Source of the DNA: Halostagnicola larsenii XH-48
Lineage (GTDB): Archaea; Halobacteriota; Halobacteria; Halobacteriales; Natrialbaceae
Direction: 5' to 3'
DNA length: 64,000 nt
Assembly: GCF_000517625.1 (NCBI RefSeq)
Contig: NZ_CP007057.1
Span: 310,001 to 374,000, forward strand
Numbering within the stretch: the first letter of the stretch is position 1; each line of letters starts with the position of its first letter. The position numbers and the translations under genes were made by a program. The notes under the pieces were generated by a model, which searched no databases, was not told where the DNA came from, and saw nothing but the letters and a program-made list of their open reading frames with translations. Positions 5,941 to 46,422 of this stretch are shown piece by piece.

Positions 5941-6612
5941 TGATGGTTCATTTCTAGGCCATCTCTCGCCTCACTGGACCACAGCGTTACCGAATACGAC
6001 TGGGGTTTACACGCCCTCTCGAGTTCGTTGCCGAACCGCACCGACCCGTAGCCGAGTGAAGTTCACGGAAGTTACATATCTGACGGCTAATTCCCCGCTA
6101 TATGCCTGTAGAGCGGTTCTCGGTATCGGATCGCAGCGAACAGTTCGGTCGGACACGCAACGGTACGGCGGGGGATCGTAGTCATCGCTCGATCGTCGGA
6201 GAGAAACGTGTTAGGGCCCGATTACGTCCGATCGAAACTACAATGGGGTGACGAACTCTTAAAGAAATATTTTCGATATTTACCTATAATAGTCAGAATT
6301 GTATAAATTATCTCGAGGCAACCGTATCGACCATTGTCGCATCGTGGTAGCGGCGTAAACGATCGTCGATGTATCGAATACCGTCGAGTAGGCGGTGCAT
6401 AGTATACAGAGACAATTCCGAAAATTCGAACAGATGACTAGTATGGTATCAAGATATTCATCAACTCGAACTAGCCGATCTGATAAAACGAGCCGAGACC
6501 GGTTGCGTTCTCGTCCTGATGAAGACGGTCTGCCGAGTGAGCATCTGTTCACTATGCAATCAACCATTCCCTCTGATATGAGCCGTGAGACGGCCACCAA
6601 TCGGTGATATAT
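5941..6612. other. intergenic, no gene recognised
   Basis: 672 bases between the compound element and the surface-protein gene. Several short open frames occur on both strands (for example 6280-6600 minus), but none has haloarchaeal amino-acid composition or a recognisable domain. The last 100 bases should contain the promoter of the gene at 6613, where ATATAT directly precedes the ATG. Confidence 0.5.
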
Positions 6613-28315: not shown

Positions 28316-28669
28316 AATAGGCCCGGTTCACGCTCAGATGAAGACACCAATCTATTACGGTCGTACTTTTGTAACCATAGGATATCCAACTATGGTTACT
28401 ATCATACGATTAGGCTGGTCTGAGAAGTGAGTAGAACCGGCTGATCTGAACACAACGCTCAGTAAAATGGCGATCATACACAATCGACGCCTTCAGCCTC
28501 AACCGTTTTGATTACTGATCCTCTCACGGAGTATAGCGATTCAACAGCTCTTCGAGACCGATCTGAAATACTGTTGTAAGCGCGGTCGTGCGTGCTGAAT
28601 AGAGCACTATAAGATGATTTTGATAGGCTTCATCGAAACCATTTTGTTGAGTACCTTCTGTTATTGTAT
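28316..28669. promoter_or_regulatory. upstream region of IclR gene with operator-like site
   Basis: 354 bases without a gene. CGAAACCATTTTG at 28634-28646 ends 24 bases before the IclR start. It resembles CGAAACCTTTCG found 44 bases before the amidohydrolase start (29762-29773), so both may be bound by this IclR protein. A stretch at 28558-28612 (GAAATACTGTTG, then GCGTGCTGAATAGAG) resembles an end of the 746-bp IS6-type element and may be a solo IS end. Confidence 0.35.
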
Positions 28670-29443
28670 ATGGCTCCAGGAAAAGACCCGAATCGCCGGG
28701 TCAAAACGACTGATACAGTACTCGAGATACTTGCCACATTACAATCGATGAACGGCGCAACGCTAGTGGAACTGACGGACGAGCTCGAGTTCGCGAAGAG
28801 CACGATACACAGTCACCTCACGACGTTAGAGAGCAGCAAGTACGTCGTCAAGAACGACGGGATGTACGAACTGAGCCTCAAATTCCTCGACCACGGCATG
28901 TTCGTCAAGAACGAGCGTGCTATCTCTCGACTCGGAGGTGCAATTCTCGAGAACCTCGCCGCCGAAACGGGGGAAGTGGCGTGGCTCATCGTCGAAGAGC
29001 ATGGGGAGGCGGTGTATCTCGACAAAGCGATGGGGGAAAACGCCGTTCAGACGCATGCGAGGGTCGGTGGTCGAGCACACCTTCACCATCTCGCCACGGG
29101 AAAGTTGATTCTGGCGTACCTTCCTGACGAGCGTGTCGAAGAAATTATTACCCGATACGGGTTACCCGAACTCACCCCAAACACGATCACTGATCCCGAC
29201 GAACTACGGGCCGAGCTCGATCAAATCCGCGATGACGGCATCGCGTTCAACGACAAGGAAACCGTCACCGGACTCCGAGCGATCGGCGCCCCAGTGCTTG
29301 GTGAGGACACGATTCACGGAGCGATTTGCGTCTCTGGGCCCGCAAACCGACTCACCGTCGACCGCTGTCACGACGAGATCAAACCACTGTTGCTCGAGGC
29401 GACGAACGAACTCGAATTGAAACTGCAGTACCCATTGAATTGA
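28670..29443 (+). CDS. IclR-family transcriptional regulator
   Basis: 257 residues from ATG 28670. The winged helix (about 8-65, AKSTIHSHLTTLESSKYVV) is followed by a full effector domain with HHLATGKLILAYLPDERVEEI and GAICVSGPANRL. I preferred this ATG over a TTG six bases upstream. It precedes the amidohydrolase-Rieske genes in the same orientation with a 373-base gap. That gap contains a CGAAACC-type palindrome, so it is the likely local regulator of that catabolic cluster (inference). Confidence 0.92.
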   Translation: MAPGKDPNRRVKTTDTVLEILATLQSMNGATLVELTDELEFAKSTIHSHLTTLESSKYVVKNDGMYELSLKFLDHGMFVKNERAISRLGGAILENLAAETGEVAWLIVEEHGEAVYLDKAMGENAVQTHARVGGRAHLHHLATGKLILAYLPDERVEEIITRYGLPELTPNTITDPDELRAELDQIRDDGIAFNDKETVTGLRAIGAPVLGEDTIHGAICVSGPANRLTVDRCHDEIKPLLLEATNELELKLQYPLN

Positions 29444-29761
29444 ACGATACGATTCGAGTAGCGTCGACTGACTGATGTTGGCCGACTCCTAGATTTACCC
29501 ATCCGCTCGAGTGCGCGGTCAGTAGCTTTTTCAGACAGTATCGGGATCCAATTCGGCTCGCATTCGGTCACTTCGAATTTCGTTCCGCAGCTATTCGGTA
29601 TTGGCGAATACCTCGCACAACCTTTTACATTCATACTACAGTAAATAGATGGCGAATATCGAATAGGTGAGGACGTTAGTAAGAGTAGAGAATTGTTTTC
29701 GGCTGTGTTTATATGGTAATTCCGAATAGAACGTCCGAATATATCAGGGCTGAATGCTCGG

Positions 29762-29773
29762 CGAAACCTTTCG
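29762..29773. promoter_or_regulatory. operator-like palindrome before amidohydrolase gene
   Basis: CGAAACCTTTCG is an inverted repeat (CGAAA-cc-TTTCG), 43 bases before the start at 29817. The GAAA/TTTC half-sites resemble known IclR-family operators, and a similar sequence lies before the IclR gene itself. The rest of 29444-29816 holds no gene. Confidence 0.4.
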
Positions 29774-29816
29774 ACACCAAAAACTTGAATATCGATCGTA
29801 AAGGATACGTGGTTGT

Positions 29817-30950
29817 ATGGGATCATCTGTCAGGCGATTAGACAGCAGAACCGAAGTTCCGGATGAGGCGTTCGAAGATGAAATCGTCGATCTGGATTTC
29901 CACGTCAATCCACAGGAAGAAGAGTTGCTAGAGTACGTAGAGGACGACCGCGCACTCGATAAGTTGACGACTGAGTTCGGTGCGACGCCGGTAATGGGCA
30001 AGTGGGACGCAGCCTACGCCATCAAAGAAGGCCAGGAAGGGTTGTTCACGCAGGGTCGGGCGAAATACGCCGAGGACGTTCGCGAGGCGTGTGAGCCCAT
30101 CGCCGTCGACGAACCGATCGTCAACGCAGGCATCAACAACCTCCCTCTCCAGCATCATCCAGTTTTGAAAAACGCCGTCTGTCAGGCGGCCAACGATTAT
30201 ATGATCGACCACTTCGTCGACGAGGGGGTCTACACTTCGATGATGGTCCCGAAGTGGGATCCCGAATACGCCGTCGAGGAGATCGACCGCGTCGCCGACG
30301 AGGACGGGATCGTCGCGGCCTACTCCTGGTTCGATCCGAAGGTTCCGTGGGGGAACGAGCAGTTCGACCCCGTCTTCGATGCGCTCGTCGAGAACAACCT
30401 ACCGCTCGTGCTTCACGGCTCGCTCGCCTACTGGCCACAGCACTCACACGTCGGCGACGATATGCTCACCTGGACGGAGGTGCTCGGTTTCGACTGGCCG
30501 ATTCACGCGATGGTCAACGTCGTCAACATGATCATGCGGGGTGTCTTCGATAAATACCCAGACCTCGACGTCGTGATTCAAGAGGGCGGCCACTGGTGGG
30601 TGCCGTTCCTGCGCTACCGGATGGACGAGTTCTACGAAATGCATCCGGAGGACATCCAGATCACGCCCCGCAAGATGGACTCCGGTGACAGGTATCTCGA
30701 GCGAGCACCAAGCGAGTACCTCCGAGACAACATCTACCTCTGTACGCAGCCGTTTGCACTGCCGCGCAACGCCGGCGCCGCGGAGAATCTTCTCGACCTC
30801 TCGATGGCCAGCGACATGTTCATTTACTCGAGTGACTGGCCACATCAGACGCTGGATCCGCCGACGTGGTTCTACACCTCTCGTGCATTCGACGAGCACA
30901 CGCGTGAACGAATCCTCAACGGGAACGCCAAAGACATTCTCGACATCTAG
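29817..30950 (+). CDS. amidohydrolase-2 family enzyme (ACMSD-like)
   Basis: 377 residues of the amidohydrolase-2 family, metal-dependent hydrolases and nonoxidative decarboxylases such as ACMSD and 5-carboxyvanillate decarboxylase. Metal ligands are visible: D27-x-H29 (DLDFHV), H200 (LVLHGS), the H259 region (QEGGHWW) and D340 (YSSDWPH). The next gene encodes a Rieske protein four bases after the stop. The pairing suggests decarboxylation or ring processing of an aromatic or heterocyclic acid (inference). The transporter-like and maleate-isomerase-like genes downstream strengthen a catabolic reading. Confidence 0.87.
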   Translation: MGSSVRRLDSRTEVPDEAFEDEIVDLDFHVNPQEEELLEYVEDDRALDKLTTEFGATPVMGKWDAAYAIKEGQEGLFTQGRAKYAEDVREACEPIAVDEPIVNAGINNLPLQHHPVLKNAVCQAANDYMIDHFVDEGVYTSMMVPKWDPEYAVEEIDRVADEDGIVAAYSWFDPKVPWGNEQFDPVFDALVENNLPLVLHGSLAYWPQHSHVGDDMLTWTEVLGFDWPIHAMVNVVNMIMRGVFDKYPDLDVVIQEGGHWWVPFLRYRMDEFYEMHPEDIQITPRKMDSGDRYLERAPSEYLRDNIYLCTQPFALPRNAGAAENLLDLSMASDMFIYSSDWPHQTLDPPTWFYTSRAFDEHTRERILNGNAKDILDI

Positions 30951-30954
30951 ACCA

Positions 30955-31320
30955 ATGGTTGACACCGACAATTTCACGAAGGTTGCAGAGGTCGACGATA
31001 TCCCCGAAGGTGAAGGCGAGGGTTTCGAAATCAACGGAATCGAGATTGCCGTCTTCAACACCGGCGACGAGTACTACGCGATCAGTAACCGATGTTCCCA
31101 TCAACGCGCACCGCTGTGTAAGGCGGGTGATCGGAAGATCAACGCCGAGGATACGTGGACCGAAGAACGCGGCGGGGTCGATACTGAGGCCTGTACGGTC
31201 TCGTGCCCGTGGCACCTTTGGGAATGGGACCTCGAGACGGGTGAACACGAAGCATCCGGACAGCACATCGGTACGTTCGATTGTACGGTCGACGGCGACG
31301 ATATCCTCGTACGTATCTGA
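30955..31320 (+). CDS. Rieske [2Fe-2S] protein
   Basis: 121 residues. The cluster ligands are C47-S-H49 (NRCSHQRAPL) and C84-P-W-H87 (SCPWHLWEW), the standard Rieske pattern. Between the ligand boxes is an insert of about 20 residues (DTWTEERGGVDTEA). It has no oxygenase catalytic domain, so it resembles ferredoxin components of Rieske oxygenases. It is probably translated with the amidohydrolase (4-base gap). No oxygenase subunit or reductase lies nearby, so its redox partner is unknown. Confidence 0.9.
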   Translation: MVDTDNFTKVAEVDDIPEGEGEGFEINGIEIAVFNTGDEYYAISNRCSHQRAPLCKAGDRKINAEDTWTEERGGVDTEACTVSCPWHLWEWDLETGEHEASGQHIGTFDCTVDGDDILVRI

Positions 31321-31784
31321 CTGATCGCCCTTCGAACCGCTTGTTTCGCTCGCCGATCGTGAACTGTACGGCGCTCAATTGTGTTACCAGAGGGCGTTGC
31401 TGACGTGCCATTATCAGCGACTCATCCGTCGGTTTCGACTCACAATTTCACGATGAGAGAGAAGACACGTTTCTCGAGAAAGTCTCGATTCGGTTGTAAC
31501 CGCCGTCGCGGGACGCAGACTACCGCGGGAGTATTTGAGCGAGTACCTCGATTGAGGTCAGCGTTTTCTCGCCATCGAAGTCGGCGGTCTCTCGTCATCG
31601 AGGTCGGTCCCGGCGAGGTCCGACGTGAGTGCGGCATCGTCGTCATCAGAACGAGCGAATTATGTATTGGCATATTTATTTCTAAATATATTCGGTAATA
31701 TCATGATCTGTTGTGTTACTTCTATAGTATAAATATCGGTATATGATCGGTGCCTTTATCACCTCCATCCCAGTGTGATAAACC
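31321..31784. promoter_or_regulatory. intergenic with perfect inverted repeat at the YjiH-type start
   Basis: 464 bases without a recognisable gene. TTTATCAC (31755-31762) and GTGATAAA (31775-31782) form a perfect 8-bp inverted repeat with a 12-base spacer, ending two bases before the ATG at 31785. A repressor bound there would cover the start of a leaderless transcript. The TATA-like ATAAATATC lies further upstream near 31729-31737. Confidence 0.5.
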
Positions 31785-33245
31785 ATGTCTGGCAGCCAGA
31801 GTTGGGAGAATGACGATCATATCTCTGGGGAATCAGTTACTCCTGAACAAAAATCGATCGACGATGTAACCCTGGCCGAAATGAATCCCCGGCCGATACT
31901 GAAATTCATCATCGCGTTCGCAACTGGTACGTTCGTTTTCCTCATTCCGATTCAGTGGGAGGGGCAGACGACGATTCCGCTCGACGTCATGATGACGCTC
32001 ATTCAGAATACGTCGATGCTCGCCGTTGACCTGTTTGCGCTCGGATTGATCACGGCAGGTGGAGTTCTAACGTCGATCTCACAGCTTCACTATCGTGGAA
32101 CAGTCACCGTCAGTGAACGGATGGAGAACCTACTCCAGTTAGATTACTGGGAGACATCGAACGTGTTCTGGGTGTTCCGAGGCGTTGCCATCTTTTTCGC
32201 GGTGGCGATCCTCCTCGACATCGGCCCGGAGTGGATGCTCGTTGATCCGATAGTCAACACCGCCTGGGGAGCACTCGTGGTTACGGTCGCGCTCGTGATC
32301 CCAATCGGATCGATCTTCGTTAATCTGCTCGCAGAACTCGGCGGCCTGCAATTCATCGGCACACTCGCACAACCGATTATGCGTCCTGCGTTCAATCTCC
32401 CTGGCCGATCAGCCCTCGATGGTGCGGCATCATGGCTCGGCTCGTTCAGCATCGGGTACTATCTTACCCGCAACGTCTTCGACCGGGGAGGATACAACAA
32501 GCGGGAAGTGTTCGTGATTTGTACCTGTTTCGCAACCGCGAACGTGGGGACGGTTGGGGCAGTCGCAGCCCTTCTCGGTCTCCTCCATCTCTTTCCGGTC
32601 ATTATCCTGCTGTACCTCATCGCGACCCTTCTCGTCGCGGCAATCCTCGTCCGGATTCCACCACTCTCGATGGTCCCCAACGAATACATCGCGGAGCCGG
32701 ATCCAGAGCCGGAGTTTACCGGGACCATCGGAGAGTACGTTCGATTCGCCTTCAACAACGGCGTGAAAACGGCGAAGGAAGGCGAGTCGATCCTTCGAAC
32801 GTCAGTCGTCGGCTTCGTCGACGGTTTGAAACTCGCCGGGATGGTCGTCGGGTCGGTACTGACGATGTCGATGGTCGTCCTCCTCGTCGAGGAATACACT
32901 GCGTTCTTTGAGTACATCGCCATGCCGTTCGTACCGCTCATGTCGATCCTCGCTATCCCGGATCCGCAAACGGCAACGATCGGCGTCATCCTCGGCGGTG
33001 CGGAGTTCTTCATCGGTGCGTCGTTCGTCGTCGAAGCCAGCGTTACCACGCAAGTATTCGTCGTGATCGTGACGGGCGCTCAAGCGATTTTCTTTTCGGC
33101 ACCAGCTCCGATGATGGTCGACATGTTCGATGACGTTCCGATGCGGTTCCGGGATCTATTCCTCCTGCTGATTCTCCGAACCGTATTGCTCGTCCCCATC
33201 GCTGCGGCCCTAACCCACGGGGCCACGGCTATCGGCCTTATATAG
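31785..33245 (+). CDS. YjiH-type/GATE-domain membrane protein
   Basis: 486 residues with about ten membrane helices. The core resembles the nucleoside-recognition (GATE) domain of YjiH/SpoIIIA-type proteins. Segments include DGAASWLGSFSIGYYLTRNVF, FATANVGTVGAVAALLG and, near the C-terminus, FIGASFVVEASV and AIFFSAPAPMMVDM. Such proteins are thought to be small-molecule transporters or gates. It lies after the amidohydrolase/Rieske pair with its own operator-like repeat and faces the maleate-isomerase-like gene. It may import the cluster's substrate (inference). Confidence 0.8.
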   Translation: MSGSQSWENDDHISGESVTPEQKSIDDVTLAEMNPRPILKFIIAFATGTFVFLIPIQWEGQTTIPLDVMMTLIQNTSMLAVDLFALGLITAGGVLTSISQLHYRGTVTVSERMENLLQLDYWETSNVFWVFRGVAIFFAVAILLDIGPEWMLVDPIVNTAWGALVVTVALVIPIGSIFVNLLAELGGLQFIGTLAQPIMRPAFNLPGRSALDGAASWLGSFSIGYYLTRNVFDRGGYNKREVFVICTCFATANVGTVGAVAALLGLLHLFPVIILLYLIATLLVAAILVRIPPLSMVPNEYIAEPDPEPEFTGTIGEYVRFAFNNGVKTAKEGESILRTSVVGFVDGLKLAGMVVGSVLTMSMVVLLVEEYTAFFEYIAMPFVPLMSILAIPDPQTATIGVILGGAEFFIGASFVVEASVTTQVFVVIVTGAQAIFFSAPAPMMVDMFDDVPMRFRDLFLLLILRTVLLVPIAAALTHGATAIGLI

Positions 33246-33372
33246 TCTCAGAGAACCCATCTGTGAAAGAGCCGGCCCGCCAATTGGAGAAACGATTACG
33301 ACCAGCGCTCGGACCGATCCCGCTGGTTCTAGCTGATGGCTGAGTACCGCTCGATCAAGTCAATAGCGATAT

Positions 33373-34137
33373 TTAGTGGCCCTCATTGAGGCCGCCTGAC
33401 AGGAGCCGCCCTGCACCGGGAACCTGCGTACTGAGACCGAGATTATCGAGAATCTCGTAGGTAGTTGCGGTCGCCGCAGAGAAGACCGGAAGCCCGAGCG
33501 TATCCTCTGCGGCCTGGATCGAGTTGAGGGACGGCATCTGGACACACGATGAGAGAACCAGTGCGTCGGCAGCGTCGGTGTCGAGATCGGCGGCGATATT
33601 CACGAGGTTCCGCTGATCGAGCTGAGCGACTTCCAGATTGTCGGGGCACTCGAGCGTCTCGTAGTCGATCACATCAACACCGGCACTCTCGAAGTAGTCG
33701 ATCATCGTCTGGGTGAGTTCTTCCACGTACGGGGCGATCAACGCGATTTTATCGGCCTCGAGCCGTTTGATCGCGCGAACGAGTGCGCCAGCACTGGTCA
33801 CGACTGGCGCGTCGCCGCCGTTTTCGACGGTCTGCTGGTGAAGCGCCGCCTCGCTCTCTTCGTGGTAGCCCGGGCCCTGGGCCATGATTCCAATAAGACA
33901 GGCATACGCGAGGACATCACAGCGGGCGTCCGATAGCAGGGTCGCACAGTGTTTTGACTGCTCGTCCATCTGCTCGAGTTCCTCCTGTGTGACGCTCTGC
34001 ATTCGCATGCGACTCGAATGGAACGTAAACTCCTCGCCGTAGAGGTCCGGGCGGGTGTTCAACATTGCCGGTATCTCCGTCTCCATCGTAACGTTCGAAC
34101 TGGGTACAATCAGTCCGATACGGAAACTATCGTTCAT
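33373..34137 (-). CDS. maleate cis-trans isomerase-like (Asp/Glu racemase superfamily)
   Basis: 254 residues. The fold is that of maleate isomerase/arylmalonate decarboxylase. GLIVPSSNVTMETE is the N-terminal substrate loop, C80 (LAYACLIG) the nucleophile and C198 (LSSCVQMPS) the second catalytic cysteine. With both cysteines present, maleate isomerase or a racemase is more likely than arylmalonate decarboxylase, which keeps only one. Maleate arises in nicotinate and gentisate degradation, consistent with the amidohydrolase and Rieske genes nearby. It converges on the YjiH-type gene and has its own promoter. Confidence 0.87.
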   Translation of the reverse strand: MNDSFRIGLIVPSSNVTMETEIPAMLNTRPDLYGEEFTFHSSRMRMQSVTQEELEQMDEQSKHCATLLSDARCDVLAYACLIGIMAQGPGYHEESEAALHQQTVENGGDAPVVTSAGALVRAIKRLEADKIALIAPYVEELTQTMIDYFESAGVDVIDYETLECPDNLEVAQLDQRNLVNIAADLDTDAADALVLSSCVQMPSLNSIQAAEDTLGLPVFSAATATTYEILDNLGLSTQVPGAGRLLSGGLNEGH

Positions 34138-34890: not shown

Positions 34891-34934
34891 CTCTTTAAGG
34901 AACTGAATCGAGTTATCGCTTACAGAACACACCC

Positions 34935-36458
34935 ATGAGCCGATCGACAGTCTCGACCCTCGCAAACCCGGTCACGGAACGTGACCACACCCGCGGCCCC
35001 GACGATGCCCCACTTACGCTTGTGGAATACGGTGATTTCGACTGTCCATCCTGCGAAGAGATGTATCACGCACTCACACAGATACAGGACCGCCTTGGCG
35101 ACCAGCTTCAATTTGTTTTCCGACATTTTCCACTCACAGAAGCTCACCCGCACGCGCTGCGCGCTGCAGAAGCTGCTGAGGCGGCAGCCGCTCAGGGGAA
35201 ATTCTGGGAGATGCACGATACGCTCTATGAGCATCAGGACGCACTCGAGCAGGAGAATCTCCGTGAATATGCCGCTGAGATAGGGCTCGATACGGAACGG
35301 TTCGCCCGCGAGCTAGACGCAGGTGTTCACCAAGAGCGTATCGAGAAAGACGTTGCAAGTGGCGCACAAAGCGGCGTTGACGGCACACCGACATTCTTTA
35401 TCAACGGCCGACGGTACGACGGACCCGTCGAACACGATGCGCTGCTCGAAGCGATCGCTCAGGCAGGCGATCTTACTGCCATCCAGGCGTCGATTCGGCA
35501 CCGTGATAAAGCGCTTCGTGAAACGATCGATCGGTCGCGAAGCGGAGCACCGGCGGCGGGCGAAGCCATCCGCGATATGTTCTCGGCGGATGAAATCTTC
35601 CAGCGGCTCGTCGCCACCGCTGACGAAGAGTTCCGTCGGAGCAATCGTCTCCTCTTCATGAGCGGTTTAGCGGCTGGTCTCGCAGTCACGCTTACGTTTC
35701 TCGCACGGTCTGCGGTTACTGCGGCCGTACCGCTCGATGCAGCGTCGTTGATTGGAAATCTCTTCTATCCGGTTGGCTTTGTTCTCATTGTGATGGGAAG
35801 ATATCAACTGTTCACTGAGAACACGCTCACACCCGTCACACTCGTCTTAACCCGCATTGCAAGTATACGGAACCTGCTTCGACTTTGGGGAGTGGTCATT
35901 ATCGCGAACGTTCTCGGTGCAGCCCTCGGCGCGTACGTTCTTGCGTCAACTGGTGTATTTACACCCGAAGCTGCTGCGGTCGCGAGCGGTTTTGGTGAAC
36001 ACGCCTTCGAAACCGGCTGGTGGGACCTGTTTTTTAAAGGCGTGTTCGCAGGGAACATCGTTGCAGCGATGGTTTGGTTAATACATGCGAGTCAAGAAAC
36101 GACGACGCGGTTTCTTATCATCGTTTTTCTCATGTTCCTTATCCCCTCGACAGATCTATTCCACTGCATTACTGGCGCGTGTGAGGTTCTCTACTTCGTA
36201 TTTCAGGGAAATGAAAGTCTCCTGACTGCATTTGCGGATTTCTTCGTCCCGGTAACGCTTGGGAATATCGTCGGCGGCGTCTTTTTAGTGGCACTGCTCA
36301 ATTATAGTCAGACAGCCGAGCGACAGTTCCCCAATCGAGATCCGAGTGAACTCAAGCTCACCTGGGCAGAATGGCTGTACAGTCGTCGTTCAGGTCGTCC
36401 CTATGTGACCTCGCTCAGCTCTGAGCGCACTGATGAACAAACTGAGGACGACTATTGA
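34935..36458 (+). CDS. DsbA-like thioredoxin domain fused to formate/nitrite-type channel
   Basis: 507 residues. The N-terminal ~190 residues are a DsbA/DSBA-like thioredoxin domain with the active site C37-P-S-C40, the cis-proline loop VDGTPTFFING near 148-158, and no signal peptide. The C-terminal part (from about 205, starting EIFQRLVATADEEFRR) is a six-helix formate/nitrite transporter (FNT) with GNLFYPVGFVLI, FKGVFAGNIVAAMVW and a pore-type histidine in DLFHCITGA. A cytosolic redox domain joined to an anion channel suggests redox control of transport, or use of reducing equivalents at the channel mouth (inference). The usual FNT protein is ~280 residues, so this is a true fusion. Confidence 0.88.
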   Translation: MSRSTVSTLANPVTERDHTRGPDDAPLTLVEYGDFDCPSCEEMYHALTQIQDRLGDQLQFVFRHFPLTEAHPHALRAAEAAEAAAAQGKFWEMHDTLYEHQDALEQENLREYAAEIGLDTERFARELDAGVHQERIEKDVASGAQSGVDGTPTFFINGRRYDGPVEHDALLEAIAQAGDLTAIQASIRHRDKALRETIDRSRSGAPAAGEAIRDMFSADEIFQRLVATADEEFRRSNRLLFMSGLAAGLAVTLTFLARSAVTAAVPLDAASLIGNLFYPVGFVLIVMGRYQLFTENTLTPVTLVLTRIASIRNLLRLWGVVIIANVLGAALGAYVLASTGVFTPEAAAVASGFGEHAFETGWWDLFFKGVFAGNIVAAMVWLIHASQETTTRFLIIVFLMFLIPSTDLFHCITGACEVLYFVFQGNESLLTAFADFFVPVTLGNIVGGVFLVALLNYSQTAERQFPNRDPSELKLTWAEWLYSRRSGRPYVTSLSSERTDEQTEDDY

Positions 36459-38186: not shown

Positions 38187-40415
38187 TCAGTCTTCCGCTT
38201 CCGCGAGCCCGTCTCGCTCCGCTGTGGCGCCCTCGAGAGGCTCGCTGTCCCAGTACTCGTGGGTCGGGTCTTCGCGGAAGCACGCGGCTTTCCCGTCCCC
38301 ATCGGCGATATCACGGAGTTCTGGGTGGTCTTCGCGACACGCTTGACGAGCGACCGGACACCGCGTGTGGAACCGGCATCCCGACGGCGGATCGATCGGA
38401 TCGGGAACGTCAACCTCTCGAAGCGGCGGCGTGCCGGCCTCCATCGAATCGAGATCCAGATCCGGAGTCGCCCACCGGAGCACCTCGGTGTACGGATGGC
38501 GAGGGTCGTTGATGAGCCGCTCGGCGGAGCCGATCTCCACGATTTCGCCCAGGTACATCACGGCAATTCGTCCGTCGCCGTGCTCTGCGAAGTACCGCGC
38601 GTTCGAAAGATCGTGGGAGATAAAGAGGAACGAGGTTTCGAACTCGGACTGCAGTTCCAGCATTAGATCCATGATTTCGATTCGCAACGACACGTCGACC
38701 GCGCTGATAGCCTCGTCGGCGAGGATCGCGTTCGGGTTCATCAACAGTGCTCGAGCGAGCGCGACGCGCTGTTTCTCCCCGCCCGAGAGCTGGTGGGGGT
38801 ATCGATCGAGGAACTCGTCGGCCGGCGCCATCCCGATCCGCTCGAGCAGGGAGTGCATTCGTTGCCGGCGTTCGGTGGTACTGCTGTTCGGATGGGTGTG
38901 TCGAAGCGGCTCCGAGAGAATGTCGACGATGCGCCGGTTCGAATTGAGCGCGCTTCCGGGGTCCTGGTGGATGATCTGGAGGGCCGATCGAATTTCGTCG
39001 TACGGTATCTCGCCGTCACCGGCTTTCGCCTCCCAGATGTCCTGTCCGCGGTACTCGATCGAGCCGTCGGTCGGACGTTCGAGCCCAATCATCGTTTTCC
39101 CGAGGGTCGTCTTGCCACAGCCGCTCTCACCCAATAAGCAGATGAGATCCTGCTCCTCGATCTCGAGCGAAACCCCGTCGACTGCCCGGACCGTGTTTGG
39201 TTCCTCGGAGAACCGTTCGAATAGCCCCTGTTCTTCGGTGAAGTGGACCTCAACATCGTCGAGTGAGAGGAGCGCTGGCCCGTTCGACTCGCTCACGCGG
39301 TCTTCCGTCGCCGTGCCTGCGGTCTCGGTCGGAACGGGGTCCTCGAAGTTGGACGCTGTCTCCCCGAAATTGAGCGGAATCTCTTCGCGAGCGGTCTCCC
39401 AGTGGTGACACGCCGATCGGTGCGTACCGTCGGCATGGCCGATCGAGGTCAGCGGCGGATCGATCGACCGACAGTCCTCGGTCGCGAGCGGACATCGCGG
39501 TTCGAACCGGCAGCCGGATGGCAGGCTCACCGGGGCCGGCCCCTCACCCTCGATCGGTTGCATCTCCTCGAGGGGTGCATCGATATTCGGCGTCGCGTTC
39601 AGTAGTTTCCGCGTGTACGGATGCGCCGACCGGCCGATAATCTCGTCGCGCGGCCCGATCTCGGCGAACTGGAACGCGTAGATAATCGCCATTCGGTCTG
39701 CGAGCGACGCGACCAGCGGCAGGTCGTGAGTGATGAAAACGATCGTCAGATCGTACTCGCTCTGCAGGTCGTTCAACAGTGTGAGAATCGACCGCTGCAT
39801 CAACAGGTCCAGCGCGGCCGTCGGTTCGTCCATCACTAACACCTCTGGATCGAGGACCATACTCAGCGCGATCAGCGCTCGCTGTTGCATTCCGCCCGAA
39901 AGTTCGTGGGGATACGCCTCGAGGACGCGTTCCGGTTCGAGATACAGATTCTCGAGGAGTTCGCGGGCGAACTCGAGTCCCTCTGAGACGTTCTTATCGT
40001 GAGCCGTGAGCGTCTCCCTGAAGTGACCGCCGATCTTCATCGTCGGGTTGAACGAACTCATCGCACCCTGGAATACCATCGACACCTCTTCCCAGCGGAA
40101 CCGTCGGAGTTCTTCGTCGCTCAACTCCAGAAGATCGACTGACGACCCGTCGCTGCGGTTATACCGAATCTGTCCGCTGAGAACTCCGGGGTCGGGGATT
40201 GCGTCGAGCAGCGCGGAAGCGAACATCGATTTTCCGCTTCCACTCTCGCCGACGATTCCGAGGACTTCGTGGCGATCGATGTCGACGGTAACGTCGTCGA
40301 GAACACACGTTTTCCCGTCGTTGTAGGTGACTCTCGCGTTCTCGATCTCGAAGATCGGATCTTCGGTGCTTCCCTGCGATGCGACGCGGCCGGTTGATGA
40401 ACTATTGGTAGCCAT
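38187..40415 (-). CDS. Opp/Dpp-type ABC transporter, fused dual ATP-binding protein
   Basis: 742 residues containing two ATPase domains in one chain. Domain 1 (about 20-345) has Walker A GESGSGKS (56-63) and signature LSGGMQQR. Domain 2 (about 380-725) has GESGCGKT and LSGGEKQR. Both end with the oligopeptide-transporter C-terminal motif with paired cysteines (GCRFEPRCPLA, GCRFHTRCPVA). In bacteria these are usually separate DppD/DppF subunits. The start overlaps the permease stop by one base (TAATG). It is last of a four-gene importer operon next to a GH67 gene, so it probably powers uptake of xylan-derived oligosaccharides. Confidence 0.93.
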   Translation of the reverse strand: MATNSSSTGRVASQGSTEDPIFEIENARVTYNDGKTCVLDDVTVDIDRHEVLGIVGESGSGKSMFASALLDAIPDPGVLSGQIRYNRSDGSSVDLLELSDEELRRFRWEEVSMVFQGAMSSFNPTMKIGGHFRETLTAHDKNVSEGLEFARELLENLYLEPERVLEAYPHELSGGMQQRALIALSMVLDPEVLVMDEPTAALDLLMQRSILTLLNDLQSEYDLTIVFITHDLPLVASLADRMAIIYAFQFAEIGPRDEIIGRSAHPYTRKLLNATPNIDAPLEEMQPIEGEGPAPVSLPSGCRFEPRCPLATEDCRSIDPPLTSIGHADGTHRSACHHWETAREEIPLNFGETASNFEDPVPTETAGTATEDRVSESNGPALLSLDDVEVHFTEEQGLFERFSEEPNTVRAVDGVSLEIEEQDLICLLGESGCGKTTLGKTMIGLERPTDGSIEYRGQDIWEAKAGDGEIPYDEIRSALQIIHQDPGSALNSNRRIVDILSEPLRHTHPNSSTTERRQRMHSLLERIGMAPADEFLDRYPHQLSGGEKQRVALARALLMNPNAILADEAISAVDVSLRIEIMDLMLELQSEFETSFLFISHDLSNARYFAEHGDGRIAVMYLGEIVEIGSAERLINDPRHPYTEVLRWATPDLDLDSMEAGTPPLREVDVPDPIDPPSGCRFHTRCPVARQACREDHPELRDIADGDGKAACFREDPTHEYWDSEPLEGATAERDGLAEAED

Positions 40416-41428
40416 TATAGCATCTCCGTTGTCGATGTTTCGTCTTCTGTTACGGTTTCCGATTCACCGGTCATACGAGTCCTCACCCGCGGGTTGAAAA
40501 TCCGGTCCATCCCTTGGCTCACCAGGATGAGCCCGAACGCCAGACCGACGATGGCGACGATCGGGACGAGAAGCCAGTGGAACGCCTGCATGGTGAACAG
40601 CCCGCCCTGATGGTACGCGTTATTCAATATGACGCCCCAGTTTTGCCCGCTATACTGGAGAACACCGATGAAGTACAGCCCGACGGCTGCGAAGATCGTA
40701 TACCGTGCGGCGAGCACGAAGTTGACCATCACGTACGGCATAATGTTCGGGAGGATGTCCTTGCGAATAATCCGGCCCGTTCCCGTTCCCATCGTTCGAG
40801 ACGCCTCGATGTAGTCTTGTTGTCGGATCGAAAGTACCTGCGAGCGGATCGAGCGACCCAATCCGGCCCAGTAGTTGATAGTCAGAACGATTCCGAGGAG
40901 GATCGGGTTCTCCGGACTGAGCGCTATCGCGAGGACGATGACGAGCGGAAGACCTGGAATCGCCATGAAGAAGTCTGATATCGACGTGATGACGGTGTCT
41001 ACCGTGCCGCCCTTGTACCCCGAAATGGTTCCGACTGCGACCGCAAGCGTGGTCGCCCACACGCCGCCGGTAAGCACCATGAGGAGGATAAACGGCGTCG
41101 ATTCGATGATCAGCGCCAGTAGGTCGATTCCCGACTGAGTCGTTCCCAACGGGTACTGCAGGTTCTCGAACGGTCTGATGAAGCGTTCGGCTTGGTTCGG
41201 GCTCGGATCGCGGTAGAGATCGAACACCTCCACTATCGCCATGAAAACGTACACGCTCAGGATGAAGATCCCGAGACGAGTCCGTCTGTCCGACCACGCG
41301 ACGACCGCGGGCGCGTAGATTTTCTGCTCGTATAGCTCCCTTAGCTGATCGCGGCGGCTCATCTCGATGTCTGTCGTCTCCGACCGCCAATCGATTCCCT
41401 CGGACGGGGTATCACGTTCAGTACTCAT
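40415..41428 (-). CDS. Opp/Dpp-type ABC transporter permease (DppC-like)
   Basis: 337 residues from ATG 41428. The cytosolic N-terminus is followed by a first helix and the MetI-type permease domain (about 110-320) with the ATPase-contact EAA-loop region around EASRTMGTGTGRIIRKDILPN. It overlaps the upstream permease by 11 bases and the ATPase by one, so translation is coupled. Length and layout match DppC. The last 25 residues are polar and acidic. Confidence 0.92.
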   Translation of the reverse strand: MSTERDTPSEGIDWRSETTDIEMSRRDQLRELYEQKIYAPAVVAWSDRRTRLGIFILSVYVFMAIVEVFDLYRDPSPNQAERFIRPFENLQYPLGTTQSGIDLLALIIESTPFILLMVLTGGVWATTLAVAVGTISGYKGGTVDTVITSISDFFMAIPGLPLVIVLAIALSPENPILLGIVLTINYWAGLGRSIRSQVLSIRQQDYIEASRTMGTGTGRIIRKDILPNIMPYVMVNFVLAARYTIFAAVGLYFIGVLQYSGQNWGVILNNAYHQGGLFTMQAFHWLLVPIVAIVGLAFGLILVSQGMDRIFNPRVRTRMTGESETVTEDETSTTEML

Positions 41429-42416
41429 CAGAATCACCCGCACTGATACGCGGATCGATAAGACCGTACGTCAGGTCAGCGATGTAGACCGCCACGACGA
41501 GCGTCGTCGTGATAACGAGGAAACACCCCATCATGAGCGGATAGTCGTTCGCTTTCACTGCCTGAATCATGTAATTGCCGAGTCCGGGGTACGAGAAAAT
41601 CTCCTCGAGGACGACGGTGCCGCCAAGACGGAATCCAATCAACAGGAGAAGACTCGTGTACATCGGGAGGATCGCGTTCCTCGCGACATATCGGGTTGCG
41701 ATGCGATTGTTCGAAAGGCCACGAAGCCTGGCGACTTCGACGTACTCTTCGCCGAGCACCTGGATACCGTTCCCTCGCATGTTGAGCGCCGTCGAACCGA
41801 TTCCGCTGATAGTGAACGCGATGATCGGCAACGCAGCGTGGTGGAGTACGCTCGAGAGATACGCGAGGCTAACGGTGTTCTCGACGCCACGGGCGACGGC
41901 GTTCCCGGTCGGGAAAAGACTGAGCTGATACCCCAAAACGAAGAGGAAGATCACCGCGAAGATGTAGTACGGAACCGACATTAGAAAGATCGACCCGCCC
42001 GACGTAACCTGGTCGAACTTCGATCCTTCCCAATACGCTTGGAGCGCGCCGATCAATACGCCGATAATGAACATCAAAATCGTCGATACCACGACAAGGA
42101 AGACAGTCCACGGGAGCGCTCTGGCCACCACTTCCGCGACGGGTTGGTTAAGAGAGATCGACTGACCGAAGTCCAGTTGGGCGATTCCGACCAAATAGTC
42201 GAGGTACTGTTGCCAGAGCGGTGCATCCGGCCTGATGTTCTGTAGTGTTTCGATACGCGCATCGACTTGATCGGCTGGGATACCCTGTTGGAGGAGTTCG
42301 AGCCGTAACTGCGTGAACGGCCCGCCCGGAAGCAGCCGAATCAAGCCGAACGTGAGCGTCGCTACTGCGAGAATTGTAAGCGGGATCTGTGCCGTTCGCT
42401 TGATGTAGTAGTTCAT
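41418..42416 (-). CDS. Opp/Dpp-type ABC transporter permease (DppB-like)
   Basis: 332 residues from ATG 42416 (MNYYIKRTAQIPLTI). It is a typical DppB-type permease: an N-terminal helix with RLLPGGPF, a long external loop (about 40-95), and the permease domain with the EYVEVARLRGLSNNRIATRYV ATPase-contact segment. Seven bases separate it from the substrate-binding protein stop. The start excludes a ten-codon upstream extension that overlaps the preceding gene. Confidence 0.92.
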   Translation of the reverse strand: MNYYIKRTAQIPLTILAVATLTFGLIRLLPGGPFTQLRLELLQQGIPADQVDARIETLQNIRPDAPLWQQYLDYLVGIAQLDFGQSISLNQPVAEVVARALPWTVFLVVVSTILMFIIGVLIGALQAYWEGSKFDQVTSGGSIFLMSVPYYIFAVIFLFVLGYQLSLFPTGNAVARGVENTVSLAYLSSVLHHAALPIIAFTISGIGSTALNMRGNGIQVLGEEYVEVARLRGLSNNRIATRYVARNAILPMYTSLLLLIGFRLGGTVVLEEIFSYPGLGNYMIQAVKANDYPLMMGCFLVITTTLVVAVYIADLTYGLIDPRISAGDSDEY

Positions 42417-42423
42417 CGTTGGA

Positions 42424-44151
42424 TTAGTTCTTCGGTCGCAGTTCACCCTCGTGAACCCACCAGAACTGTGGCCACTTGACCTGTCGATTAGGACTGTCCT
42501 CGTCGGCGACCGTCCACCTGTCGTTCATTATCCAAGACTGCTCGTATTTGGAGACCAGCCCGAGGAAGGGCAGTTCGATGTGATTGTGCCACGCCGCTCG
42601 TTGAACGTACGGTCTGGCCTCGTCGTCGCTGGGTTGTTGTGCGATCTGCTCGGTCTCCTCGAGGGGAGTAATCGTCATCTCCCCGCCGTCTCGCCCTGGA
42701 ATCGTTTGTTCGGACTGTGCTGGTTCGCGGTAGTTGTGGCCGCCACCGATCTCTTCTTCCCACAGTTGGTACCGAAGTGGGAAGTATGGGAACGACGATC
42801 GCGAACCGCCGGGCAGCCAGTAGAGACTCCCCATCGAGAAGTTGCTATTAGAGTACTCGCTAAACCAGTCGTTCGTCGGTTTAGTACTGACCGAGAAATC
42901 GAAGCCGAACTCGTTTAGCTGGCTGACAACGGTGTTAGACATAGTCGTCCAGTCGGTCCACCCCCCGGGCGAGAAGTACTCCCCGCCGATGGTTTCTCCG
43001 TCAGAGTCCTCCCACGTACCGTTTTCCTTGGTGTAGCCGGCCTCCTGAAGCAATTCGGTCGCCTCGTCGGTCTGACTCGAATCGACGCCGTAGGTCTCGA
43101 AATCCGATTGCCAGTCGTCAAGCCAGTACTCCTGATCGCGGGGAGCGATACCGCACGGGGTCGGCGTGACGAATTTCGACCGCGGACCGGCGTTTTCGAC
43201 GATCGCCTCGCGGTCGATGACGTGTGCGACTGCCTGGCGAACCTCGCGCTGTCCGAAGTGGGGGTCGTCGTGGTTGAACACGATCCCGTATCCCCACTTT
43301 GCGGGGATCTGGACCTCAGTGATGTGATCGGGGAACTGATCGACGATCTCCGGCGGTGCGAACAGACTCGGTGATGCATCGACGTCCGATCCCGACATCA
43401 ACGCCTGGTGTTGGGCGCTGTTCCCGCCGTAACTCTCGATCATAAACGTCTCGATTTCCACGTTATCGGCGTTGTAGAATTCGGGATTTTTCTCGAATTC
43501 GAACGCCTGCCGGTCCTTGCTAACGAACGAAAACATCCCGCTCGCGACCGGGTCTTCCCACGCCCAGCGAAGAAACTCCGACTCATCCTTGTCTAACCAC
43601 TGTTCGTGAGTCTCCGCTTTCGTGTCTACGAGGAAGTTCGTGAGTTCGAACTTGATGATCTTCGGGTTCGTCGGACCGGAGAGAATCAGTCGGGCGGTCT
43701 TGTCGTCCTCGATCTCGTAGTCATCGAGGTACCCCCACAGCGAGGTCCCGGTCATTTCCGCGAGTTGCAGTTGCACGTCTAGATCTTCAGTCGTCCACTC
43801 GTCCCCATTATCCCACATCAGGTCGTCGCGAAACGTGAGCGTAACCTCCTCCTCCTCGATTTCTATGTCTTCAAGTGCACCGAGCAGGAATTCGTTCTCG
43901 GTAAACGAATACTTCATAAACGGAGCGAACACCGCCCGTCCCGCTGGCCACCTGTAGTTTTGAATCGCCGACGTGTTGAAGTGAAGGTCGGCCGGATTGC
44001 CGGTGTAAGCGTTGACGAACGTACCGGTATCTGAACCACTACCGCCGAGACAGCCGGCGAACGCGGCTGTTCCGGATGCACCTGCTACCATCAGCATTTC
44101 CCGCCGACTAAATACGTCGCTATAGTTCTCTCGAGTGTCATCTATTCCCAT
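42424..44151 (-). CDS. Tat-exported lipoprotein, Opp/Dpp-type substrate-binding protein
   Basis: 575 residues. The N-terminus carries a twin-arginine signal SRREML (15-20) and a lipobox FAGC with the lipid-anchored cysteine at about 34, followed by a Gly/Ser linker. The mature part is a family 5 (oligopeptide/nickel) binding protein with VRQAVAHVIDREAIVE and ATELLQEAGYTKENGTW. In Thermotoga, Opp-type transporters next to the GH67 gene take up xylan oligosaccharides (established). The same arrangement here suggests (glucurono)xylo-oligosaccharides rather than peptides. A TATA-like AT-rich stretch lies near 44180-44200. Confidence 0.92.
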   Translation of the reverse strand: MGIDDTRENYSDVFSRREMLMVAGASGTAAFAGCLGGSGSDTGTFVNAYTGNPADLHFNTSAIQNYRWPAGRAVFAPFMKYSFTENEFLLGALEDIEIEEEEVTLTFRDDLMWDNGDEWTTEDLDVQLQLAEMTGTSLWGYLDDYEIEDDKTARLILSGPTNPKIIKFELTNFLVDTKAETHEQWLDKDESEFLRWAWEDPVASGMFSFVSKDRQAFEFEKNPEFYNADNVEIETFMIESYGGNSAQHQALMSGSDVDASPSLFAPPEIVDQFPDHITEVQIPAKWGYGIVFNHDDPHFGQREVRQAVAHVIDREAIVENAGPRSKFVTPTPCGIAPRDQEYWLDDWQSDFETYGVDSSQTDEATELLQEAGYTKENGTWEDSDGETIGGEYFSPGGWTDWTTMSNTVVSQLNEFGFDFSVSTKPTNDWFSEYSNSNFSMGSLYWLPGGSRSSFPYFPLRYQLWEEEIGGGHNYREPAQSEQTIPGRDGGEMTITPLEETEQIAQQPSDDEARPYVQRAAWHNHIELPFLGLVSKYEQSWIMNDRWTVADEDSPNRQVKWPQFWWVHEGELRPKN

Positions 44152-44349
44152 GACAGGTGTGGAATGTTCACAGCCATTAATAAATATTATGATGCACGTT
44201 TATTATATTCTCATCTAAAGGCTCAATGGTCAAGATGGACACCGTCCCACCGTCAGTAGAGTTGCGGACGGAACGACCCGTTCTGTTCGAGACGACGGAC
44301 TGACCACTAACGTTTTACCGGTTGCCGACAACGGCTTCGGTATATCTCG

Positions 44350-46422
44350 ATGAATCAGTACGACGACTGCTGGCTTCGGTACGAGCGCGTTACGGAGAAC
44401 GATCGACTCGAATCGTACCGACGCCGGTGTAGACACGCGTACGTCGCCGAGAAGGCGCCCGAACACGGAGCGATTCGAGACGAACTCCGACGGGCTCTGC
44501 CCGATCTCCTCGGGACGGAGCCCCACTTCTGGCAACATCCGCCGACGACGGCGGACGGGTTTCTTGCCATCGGCACGCCCGAAGATATGACGATGATCGC
44601 CGACTCCGTTCCGGCCGACGACATCGCCGAACTCAGCAGTGGCGGGTACCTCATCCGTTCGGTCACCTGGAACGGTCTGGACTGTCTCGTCGTCACCGCA
44701 ACCACTGATCGCGGATTGGTGTACGGAACGTTCCACCTCCTCCGACTTCTGAACGTGCGAGAATCGATCGGCGATCTCGAGGTTCGGCAGGATCCGGCGT
44801 ACGAGAACCGACTGCTCAACCAGTGGGATACGCCCTTTCACCGCTCGGTCGAACGAGGGTACGGCGGCGAATCGATCTTCGACTGGGAACGACTGCCCGA
44901 CCTCCGAACTCGATACGAGGACTACGCCCGCCTGTTGGCCTCCGTGGGCATCAACGGGATCGTTCTCAACAACGTCAACACCACGAAGCCGGCGCGAGCG
45001 AGCGCGAACGCTGCGTTCGACGAGTTTGAGGGGTGGCAATTGCTGGAGTCGCGACGCCTCGAGGACCTCACTGGACTTGCGTCGGTGTTTCGCCGGTACG
45101 GGATCCGGCCGTACCTGTCGGTCAACTTCGCGTCACCGATGCTCGTCGGCGATCTCGACACCGCCGACCCGCTCGATAAAGATGTCCAAGCCTGGTGGCG
45201 GCGGAAAGCCGACGAAGTGTACGATCTCCTCCCGGATTTCGGCGGTTTTCTCGTGAAAGCCGACTCCGAGGGACAGCCCGGCCCCTACGACTACGGGCGC
45301 GACCACGTTACCGGGGCGAACGCGATCGCGCAGGCGCTAAAGCCACACGGCGGCCGCGTCTGGTGGCGGGCCTTCGTCTACGGGTCGCACGAAGATCGGG
45401 CGGTACAGGCGTACGACACGTTCGAACCGCTGGACGGCGACTTCGCCGACAACGTCACCGTACAGATCAAAAACGGGCCGATCGATTTCCAGCCCCGCGA
45501 GCCCGTATCGCCGCTGTTTGGCGCGCTCTCGGAGACGGCTATCGGGATGGAACTCCAGATCACACAGGAGTACACCGGTCAGGGCGTCCACGCGACGTAC
45601 CATCTCCCGATGTGGAAGGAGGTCTTCGAGTTCGACACGCACGCCGACGGAGCGGGGACGCCGGTGAAGTCCCTACTGCGCGGAGACGAACAAGGGATCG
45701 TCGGCGTCGGAAACGTCGGCGAGGACTACAACTGGACGGGACACTACCTCGCGCAGGCGAACCTCTACGCGTTCGGCCGCGCAGCCTGGAGCCCCGACCT
45801 GTCGGTCGAGACGGTAACCGACGAGTGGGTTCGACAGACGTTCGGGGCCGACGAGACCGTCGGCGACGTGATCAAAGATATCCTCCGACGGTCGTGGGAG
45901 GCCTGCATCGATTACGAAACCGGCGGCCTCGGGCTACTGCACATGATGCACAACGGCGAGGAGCACCTCGAGAACCACTACTACCCGTCGCCCGAGGAGT
46001 GGCCCGGCTATCACGGCGCGAGCGAGGACGGGATCGGCGTCGACCGGACCGAATCTGGAAGCGGCTACGTCGCGCAGTATCCGGAGCCGATCGCCGACCG
46101 CTACGGCTCCGTCGAGCGCTGTCCCGAGGAACTCCTCCTCTTCTTTCACCACCTCCCGTGGGACCACGAACTCGAAGACGGGACCACCGTCGTCCAGCGG
46201 CTCTACGACAACTGTTTCGCCGGCGTCGACGAGGTCAAACGGCTCCGTGAGCGGTGGCACGCCCTCGAGGGACGCGTCGATGAGCGCCGACACCGACACG
46301 TCGCCGAGCGGTTCGACGAGCAAGTCAGTAACGCGCAGCGGTGGCGGGACGCTCTCACGGCGTACTTCCGGGAGTACTCGGGTATTCCGGACGAACGAGG
46401 CCGCGTTCGGCGCGACGAGTGA
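44350..46422 (+). CDS. aguA: GH67 alpha-glucuronidase
   Basis: 690 residues, the normal size for GH67. The enzyme removes 4-O-methyl-glucuronic acid from the non-reducing end of glucurono-xylooligosaccharides. Diagnostic segments are the N-terminal DDCWLRYERV, GFLVKADSEGQPGPYDYGR in the TIM barrel, RVWWRAFVYGSHEDRA, VQIKNGPIDFQPREPVSPLFG and LQITQEYTGQGVH, which carry the catalytic acid and base carboxylates. No signal peptide is present, so it acts in the cytosol on imported oligomers. This fits the adjacent, divergently transcribed Opp-type importer. Confidence 0.94.
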   Translation: MNQYDDCWLRYERVTENDRLESYRRRCRHAYVAEKAPEHGAIRDELRRALPDLLGTEPHFWQHPPTTADGFLAIGTPEDMTMIADSVPADDIAELSSGGYLIRSVTWNGLDCLVVTATTDRGLVYGTFHLLRLLNVRESIGDLEVRQDPAYENRLLNQWDTPFHRSVERGYGGESIFDWERLPDLRTRYEDYARLLASVGINGIVLNNVNTTKPARASANAAFDEFEGWQLLESRRLEDLTGLASVFRRYGIRPYLSVNFASPMLVGDLDTADPLDKDVQAWWRRKADEVYDLLPDFGGFLVKADSEGQPGPYDYGRDHVTGANAIAQALKPHGGRVWWRAFVYGSHEDRAVQAYDTFEPLDGDFADNVTVQIKNGPIDFQPREPVSPLFGALSETAIGMELQITQEYTGQGVHATYHLPMWKEVFEFDTHADGAGTPVKSLLRGDEQGIVGVGNVGEDYNWTGHYLAQANLYAFGRAAWSPDLSVETVTDEWVRQTFGADETVGDVIKDILRRSWEACIDYETGGLGLLHMMHNGEEHLENHYYPSPEEWPGYHGASEDGIGVDRTESGSGYVAQYPEPIADRYGSVERCPEELLLFFHHLPWDHELEDGTTVVQRLYDNCFAGVDEVKRLRERWHALEGRVDERRHRHVAERFDEQVSNAQRWRDALTAYFREYSGIPDERGRVRRDE

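Follow-up and report, generated by a model that had tools for sequence, protein, structure and literature searches.

The window analysed here is a stretch of 64,000 nucleotides from Halostagnicola larsenii XH-48 (contig NZ_CP007057.1, 464,581 bases, in a genome of 4.13 Mb with six matches to the formate/nitrite transporter (FNT) family). On its forward strand, positions 34935–36458 hold one reading frame of 507 codons plus stop, without an internal stop, in which a DsbA-like thiol domain precedes an FNT channel domain. The first domain (residues 15–174, 34977–35456) matches Pfam PF13462 Thioredoxin_4 with 99.2 bits (E 3.6e-28) against a curated cut-off of 23.2, and the DSBA profile also exceeds its curated cut-off there (E 1.1e-18). 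The dithiol motif CPSC, read from the sequence, occupies residues 37–40 (35043–35054), and the cis-proline codon, Pro152 within GTPTFF, lies at 35388–35390. The second domain (residues 220–457, 35592–36305) matches PF01226 Form_Nir_trans over profile positions 1–239 of 240, with 178 bits (E 2.6e-52) against a curated cut-off of 34.6. The NhaA-type antiporter domain PF06965 has no Pfam match in the protein.

Upstream of the gene, at 28664–34137, lie genes for an IclR regulator, an amidohydrolase, a Rieske protein, a Gate-domain membrane protein and an arylmalonate-decarboxylase-like (Amdase) protein, which together look like a catabolic cluster. Downstream, at 38187–46422, genes for a dipeptide-type ABC transporter stand beside a GH67 alpha-glucuronidase (44350–46422), and the transporter possibly serves glucuronoxylan oligosaccharides. 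No IS remnant was found immediately downstream, four of the short frames between 36452 and 38036 being without a Pfam family match.

The start codon is backed by an N-terminus, MSRSTVSTLA or MSQTE..TLT, common to most full-length haloarchaeal relatives. A TATA-like TTTAAG (34894–34899, forward strand) lies about 39 bases before the ATG; its TAA is invariant in 7/7 aligned upstream regions, and it is a putative promoter element. No hydrophobic leader was detected, the highest 19-residue Kyte–Doolittle mean near the N-terminus being −0.03, and by hydropathy there is no hydrophobic stretch before residue 237 that could be the signal peptide or lipobox of an exported DsbA thiol oxidase.

An AlphaFold2 model of the fusion (mean pLDDT 81) contains two confident domains and a low-confidence linker. 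The DsbA half, with ten-residue blocks at pLDDT 85–97, matches BdbD (3eu3) with Z 23.2 over 175 residues at 2.1 Å. The FNT half, with pLDDT mostly 80–97 except at residues ~281–310 and the ends, matches 22 FNT entries with Z 25.6–30.5, the top matches being LciA (9v2a, Z 30.5), HSC (3tds, Z 30.1) and FocA (9i3k, Z 29.6), with PfFNT at Z ~30. The linker and pre-TM1 segment between the two (residues 179–219, 35469–35591) is mostly below pLDDT 70 and includes the conserved RETIDRSRSGAPAAG.

Both ends of FocA are cytoplasmic, according to the available part of PMC5572259. The loops of the window's FNT domain carry 0, 3, 0, 1 and 0 Lys/Arg residues and its C-terminus 7, which gives 0, 0 and 0 for the external loops and 3, 1 and 7 for the inside; this positive-inside pattern fits a channel with its N and C ends inside the cell. 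An earlier note on this DNA had described a DsbA-type domain joined in one frame, at 34935–36458 and without a signal peptide, to a complete FNT channel, and had left the side of the CPSC domain to topology prediction. The intact frame, the Pfam matches above curated cut-offs, and the hydropathy together with the conserved start all agree with that description, and the charge counts, in agreement with the FocA ends, place the CPSC domain on the cytoplasmic side. In its fold, CxxC and cis-proline the domain resembles the BdbD and DsbA thiol oxidases. Those enzymes act outside the cytoplasm, whereas the DsbA half here has no export signal and sits on the cytosolic end of a membrane protein.

The pore was compared with V. 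cholerae FocA through a hand-read HMMER alignment to 3kly. Thr294 (35814–35816) falls at the place of FocA Thr91 in the LFT loop, and His410 (36162–36164) at the pore His209; both are invariant in 16 fusions. The constriction consists of Tyr278, Ile403, His410 and Thr413, the last being Val in several relatives, and Gly373 takes the place of Asn172. This Y-I-H-T constriction differs from the FFHA of FocA (PMC5525234, available part). The same source gives a Y-I-H-V constriction, and Gly where other FNTs have Asn172, as the signature of the YfdC subfamilies, which in its available part are without known substrate and include most archaeal FNTs. Tyr278, Ile403 and His410 match the YIH of YIHV, and Gly373 matches as well, whereas Thr413 differs from Val (PMC5525234, same part). 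The best reading is a channel of an uncharacterised YfdC-like kind. Among relatives of the channel half, tandem FNT pairs were seen in Aurantimonas (L134, L135 and L141), ~48–49% and 33–34% identical to the window's FNT domain.

We then examined how widely the architecture occurs. A whole-protein search recovered 10 full-length DsbA-FNT genes in 9/292 sampled genomes of the class, and a query with a related DsbA gave 12 places in 10 of the 292 genomes (E ≤ 1.9e-46), of which 10 were the same fusions and 2 were stand-alone. Carriers include Natrinema zhouii (on two plasmids), N. versiforme, Natrialba asiatica, N. taiwanensis and N. aegyptia, Saliphagus infecundisoli, Halosolutus gelatinilyticus, Haladaptatus, Halocatena and several MAGs, one of them a MAG called Thermoplasmatales. 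CxxC is kept in 27/28 archaeal N-terminal fusions, the exception being L015 with SSEC, and the cis-proline in 28/28, a set that leaves out L086 and L091. In 11/11 close pairs, dN/dS was 0.06–0.23 for the DsbA part and 0.025–0.12 for the FNT part, the FNT half being the more constrained in 10 of them. Both halves of the fusion are under purifying selection.

The reverse order, in which a single frame encodes the FNT channel ahead of the DsbA domain, was found at six loci of salt-lake type bacteria: Salinibacter ruber pSR116, a Salinivenus MAG, Aliifodinibius salipaludis, an Aliifodinibius MAG, a Balneolaceae MAG and a Bacteroidetes MAG. In the phylum of A. salipaludis this order occurs in 3/296 sampled genomes. 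Modelling of the A. salipaludis protein recovered both folds, with residues 315–493 matching ScsC, BdbD and DsbA at Z 16–22. Because both FNT ends are predicted to lie inside, either order would put the DsbA module on the same, cytoplasmic face. An assembly error, or a fusion confined to one strain with a broken or inactive half, had been named beforehand as what could undo the finding. The rarity of the architecture in both the haloarchaeal class and the Aliifodinibius phylum might suggest a chance or assembly fusion without function, as might two broken copies, each read in two frames (L075 in Natrialba aegyptia, L086 in Haladaptatus halobius). Conservation refutes it: the fusion recurs in many independent assemblies, in named carriers and in two domain orders, under purifying selection, leaving the probability of such an accident negligible. 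The DsbA-FNT fusion is real.

The active site differs between the two orders. All 6 bacterial C-terminal fusions have a CxxS site that retains the first cysteine (CxxC in 0/6), and the cis-proline is gone from each of them. Given CxxC and cis-proline on the archaeal side against CxxS without cis-proline on the bacterial, the archaeal module looks catalytically able, and the bacterial one appears to act at most with one cysteine. Dithiol exchange is therefore not universal in these proteins, and, with SSEC in the archaeal L015 added to the six bacterial forms, a dithiol switch cannot be the full explanation. A pore cysteine beside His410, C411, was considered as a partner of CPSC; L015 lacks both, but L043 has CPSC without the pore cysteine and 5/6 bacterial forms have the pore cysteine without CxxC. 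An alternative reading is that the domain is redox-inert and serves the channel in docking or assembly, by binding proteins or aiding folding, with catalysis as a leftover. Retention of the DsbA fold in the 6/6 bacterial fusions that lack the second cysteine and cis-proline, and the SSEC of L015, would agree with such a role; the near-universal archaeal cysteine pair under low dN/dS, and the first cysteine held in every bacterial form, speak against it, and we regard it as rather unlikely.

To place the DsbA domains, we built a tree without L156 and L075, to which three exported-type haloarchaeal DsbA proteins were added as distant rows. The 33 FNT-linked DsbA domains, of both orders, form one side of a branch with 94/98 support, recovered in 93% of bootstrap trees, and the NhaA-linked and stand-alone domains fall on its other side. 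An earlier tree without the distant rows gave the same branch at 93/98. With this support (94/98) the NhaA-linked domains, represented by four C-terminal rows, lie outside the FNT-linked branch. For the FNT halves, a quick tree of 88 rows, from which six long or odd rows of the full 94-row tree had been dropped, rejected the N-terminal fusions as one clade (p-AU 9.5e-7). Since the FNT-linked DsbA domains are of one lineage and the FNT halves of the N-terminal fusions are not one clade, a single DsbA lineage seems to have become associated with FNTs, changing its position at least once and losing or exchanging channels on the way. Either a single origin, after which the FNT half was lost or exchanged, or several separate gains would agree with the two trees.

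Another soluble domain is also joined to haloarchaeal FNTs. In the window's own genome, L002 (C1:2172054–2175764) encodes an FNT with a C-terminal universal stress protein (Usp) domain identified by Pfam. As in the DsbA fusion, a related FNT carries a soluble domain of regulatory type on its cytoplasmic end; unlike the N-terminal DsbA, the Usp domain is C-terminal and has no thiol motif. Because many haloarchaeal FNT frames are ~600–680 aa long, the FNT-Usp fusion may be common; rows of the FNT tree marked as possible Usp were labelled from frame length only, and the Pfam-confirmed domain is that of L002 alone.

DsbA modules are also fused to NhaA antiporters. The earlier note had drawn a parallel to Na+/H+ antiporter-DsbA fusions, and named records confirm it for either end of NhaA: the DsbA domain is C-terminal in two Streptomyces, Tsukamurella and Stutzerimonas (L150–L153) and N-terminal in Sinorhizobium mexicanum (L156, 2468–4276). 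Like the protein studied here, these place a related cytosolic-type DsbA module (39–53% identity) on a proton-linked transporter at either terminus; they differ in that the transporter is unrelated and the DsbA domains lie outside the FNT-linked lineage. Since related modules serve a Na+/H+ antiporter, a role in signalling accounts for more of the observations than a reaction with the transported ion would.

We also searched the surroundings of the fusions for functional partners. No conserved operon around the window gene was found: in 35 fusion loci its neighbours did not recur together. Apart from genes shared by close relatives and from widespread families scattered over the loci (ABC ATPases, regulators, transposases and the like), a peroxiredoxin was the sole neighbour to recur; frames were taken by length here, and many are spurious. 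A hint at the substrate comes from one locus, that of Halocatena salina plasmid 2 (L046, 1019–8198), with the order formamidase, UreI-type channel, formamidase, DsbA-FNT and peroxiredoxin. This neighbourhood suggests formate as the substrate there, and the genes may together form a unit that turns formamide into formate and ammonia and has a formate channel of its own. A general partnership with formamidase was rejected, since it stands beside the L046 fusion only, among 27 sequences and 80 loci.

This locus bears on one account of the thiol domain, namely that its dithiol acts directly on the species passing the pore, be it hydrosulfide or nitrite, including nitrite that the peroxiredoxin would form from peroxynitrite. 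The earlier note had offered, beside redox gating, a direct reaction with the sulfur or nitrogen species being transported, and FNT channels do include nitrite and hydrosulfide carriers (PMC5525234, available part). The proposal found no support. The bacterial domains no longer have the second cysteine or the cis-proline; NhaA, to which related modules are fused, carries Na+ and H+; and the one metabolically informative neighbourhood suggests formate, a substrate without thiol chemistry. We consider direct chemistry improbable.

The stand-alone DsbA relatives directly adjoin an AhpC/TSA peroxiredoxin. All ten plasmid records with this peroxiredoxin subfamily (E ≤ 1e-40) have the DsbA subfamily as neighbour: in nine, a stand-alone DsbA lies just downstream of the peroxiredoxin, overlapping it or within ~61 bases, with the fusion as third gene in one of the nine, Halosolutus; in the tenth, Halocatena salina, the DsbA-FNT fusion lies just upstream. 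The peroxiredoxin subfamily occurs in 3/292 haloarchaeal genomes, always beside the module (two stand-alone DsbA, one fusion). It stands beside 6/29 archaeal fusion loci, all six in one subgroup of the FNT tree, and in L037, L079, L080 and L083 peroxiredoxin, stand-alone DsbA and DsbA-FNT form a three-gene row in which the DsbA copies are of different lineages. No peroxiredoxin was seen beside the other 23/29 archaeal or the 6/6 bacterial fusion loci, some of whose flanks are shortened by contig ends. The window gene has no AhpC/TSA neighbour, and the subfamily is absent from the window's genome at E ≤ 1e-30, the best remote match being 41% over part. Separately, on a plasmid of Trichormus variabilis (L040), a close stand-alone DsbA relative is set among GroES/GroEL, Hsp20, DnaK and YfdX genes, surroundings that we read as a plasmid stress island.

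In the main rival to redox control of the channel, the two halves would work side by side by tethering, the FNT anchoring the DsbA domain near incoming peroxide as thiol donor to the peroxiredoxin, and no gating would be involved. Peroxiredoxin-DsbA pairs that exist without any FNT point this way, as do the fusions that themselves adjoin a peroxiredoxin in Halocatena salina and Halocatena marina DFN5, and the archaeal retention of CxxC and cis-proline. Yet a bare anchor needs no constant transporter class, while here the channel half is the more constrained in nearly all pairs, and the DsbA domain persists in bacteria after loss of the second cysteine. On balance this account is unlikely, though less so than those discussed above.

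For redox control of the channel by the fused thiol module, precedents are available at both the channel and the stress level. In FocA, PflB binds the N-terminal helix on the cytoplasmic side and presumably gates the channel (PMC11841067, available part). FocA shares with the fusion the FNT fold and the pore Thr and His, and with the proposal the control from the cytoplasmic N-terminal side (same part of PMC11841067); its partner is a separate substrate-making enzyme, in contrast to the fused thiol module here. The Kef K+/H+ antiporter is controlled by glutathione adducts, and the resulting acidification is protective, according to the available part of PMC10224563; Kef thus resembles the proposal in placing proton-linked transport under thiol-stress control. 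Kef lacks the DsbA fold, unlike the fusion. Its ligand is the glutathione adduct, bound on a soluble domain of another fold.

Taken together, the NhaA parallel, the precedent of the FocA N-terminal helix and that of Kef lead us to favour redox control of the channel by the fused, peroxiredoxin-linked thiol module, a reading that we hold tentatively and at not quite an even chance. Of the two proposals in the earlier note, redox regulation is better than direct chemistry because NhaA, which bears related DsbA modules, moves ions without thiol chemistry, and because a related stand-alone form is paired with a peroxiredoxin. Preservation of the architecture over long evolutionary time and in both orders likewise suggests oxidative-stress control of the channel.

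In the mechanism that we propose, the pentamer, the gating and its direction, the trigger and the substrate are all inferred. The protein would, by family, be a pentameric FNT-type anion/proton channel with one cytosolic DsbA-like thiol module at each subunit N-terminus, adjoining the helix through which FocA is presumably gated. Peroxide or another oxidative stress, relayed by the peroxiredoxin where present, would change the redox state of CPSC; an ensuing change of shape or contact at the cytoplasmic mouth would open or close the channel, and the flow of weak acid and protons would thereby track the thiol state of the cell. A more general scheme, in which one peroxiredoxin-linked cytosolic DsbA module is plugged onto FNT or NhaA, at either end, to give thiol-dependent ion and proton flow, is plausible but somewhat less likely. 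On that scheme, DsbA-FNT would represent the first FNT channel under redox gating, with the bacterial CxxS form as a variant that senses through a single cysteine.

Public annotation names the fusion proteins only 'formate/nitrite transporter'. The frames of L043 (6001–7509) and L037 (5593–7113) are open from the conserved start, and their annotated starts are late, at 6559 and 5671, dropping the DsbA half wholly or partly, which hides the architecture in these two records. A search of the literature by title and abstract, with subscription literature mostly outside its scope, found no description of a DsbA-FNT fusion, and the words thioredoxin, DsbA and fused are absent from the available part of the main text of PMC5525234. 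The channel family and the thiol fold are known; what is new is their architecture, undescribed as far as searched, and the pattern over two transporter families.

FNT channels export or import weak acids. A channel with its own thiol module, known in both domain orders and in a natural form with fewer cysteines, offers a ready test of gating from the cytoplasmic side. The fusion also connects the study of redox control by peroxiredoxins with that of pH or anion homeostasis, in organisms of saturated brine.
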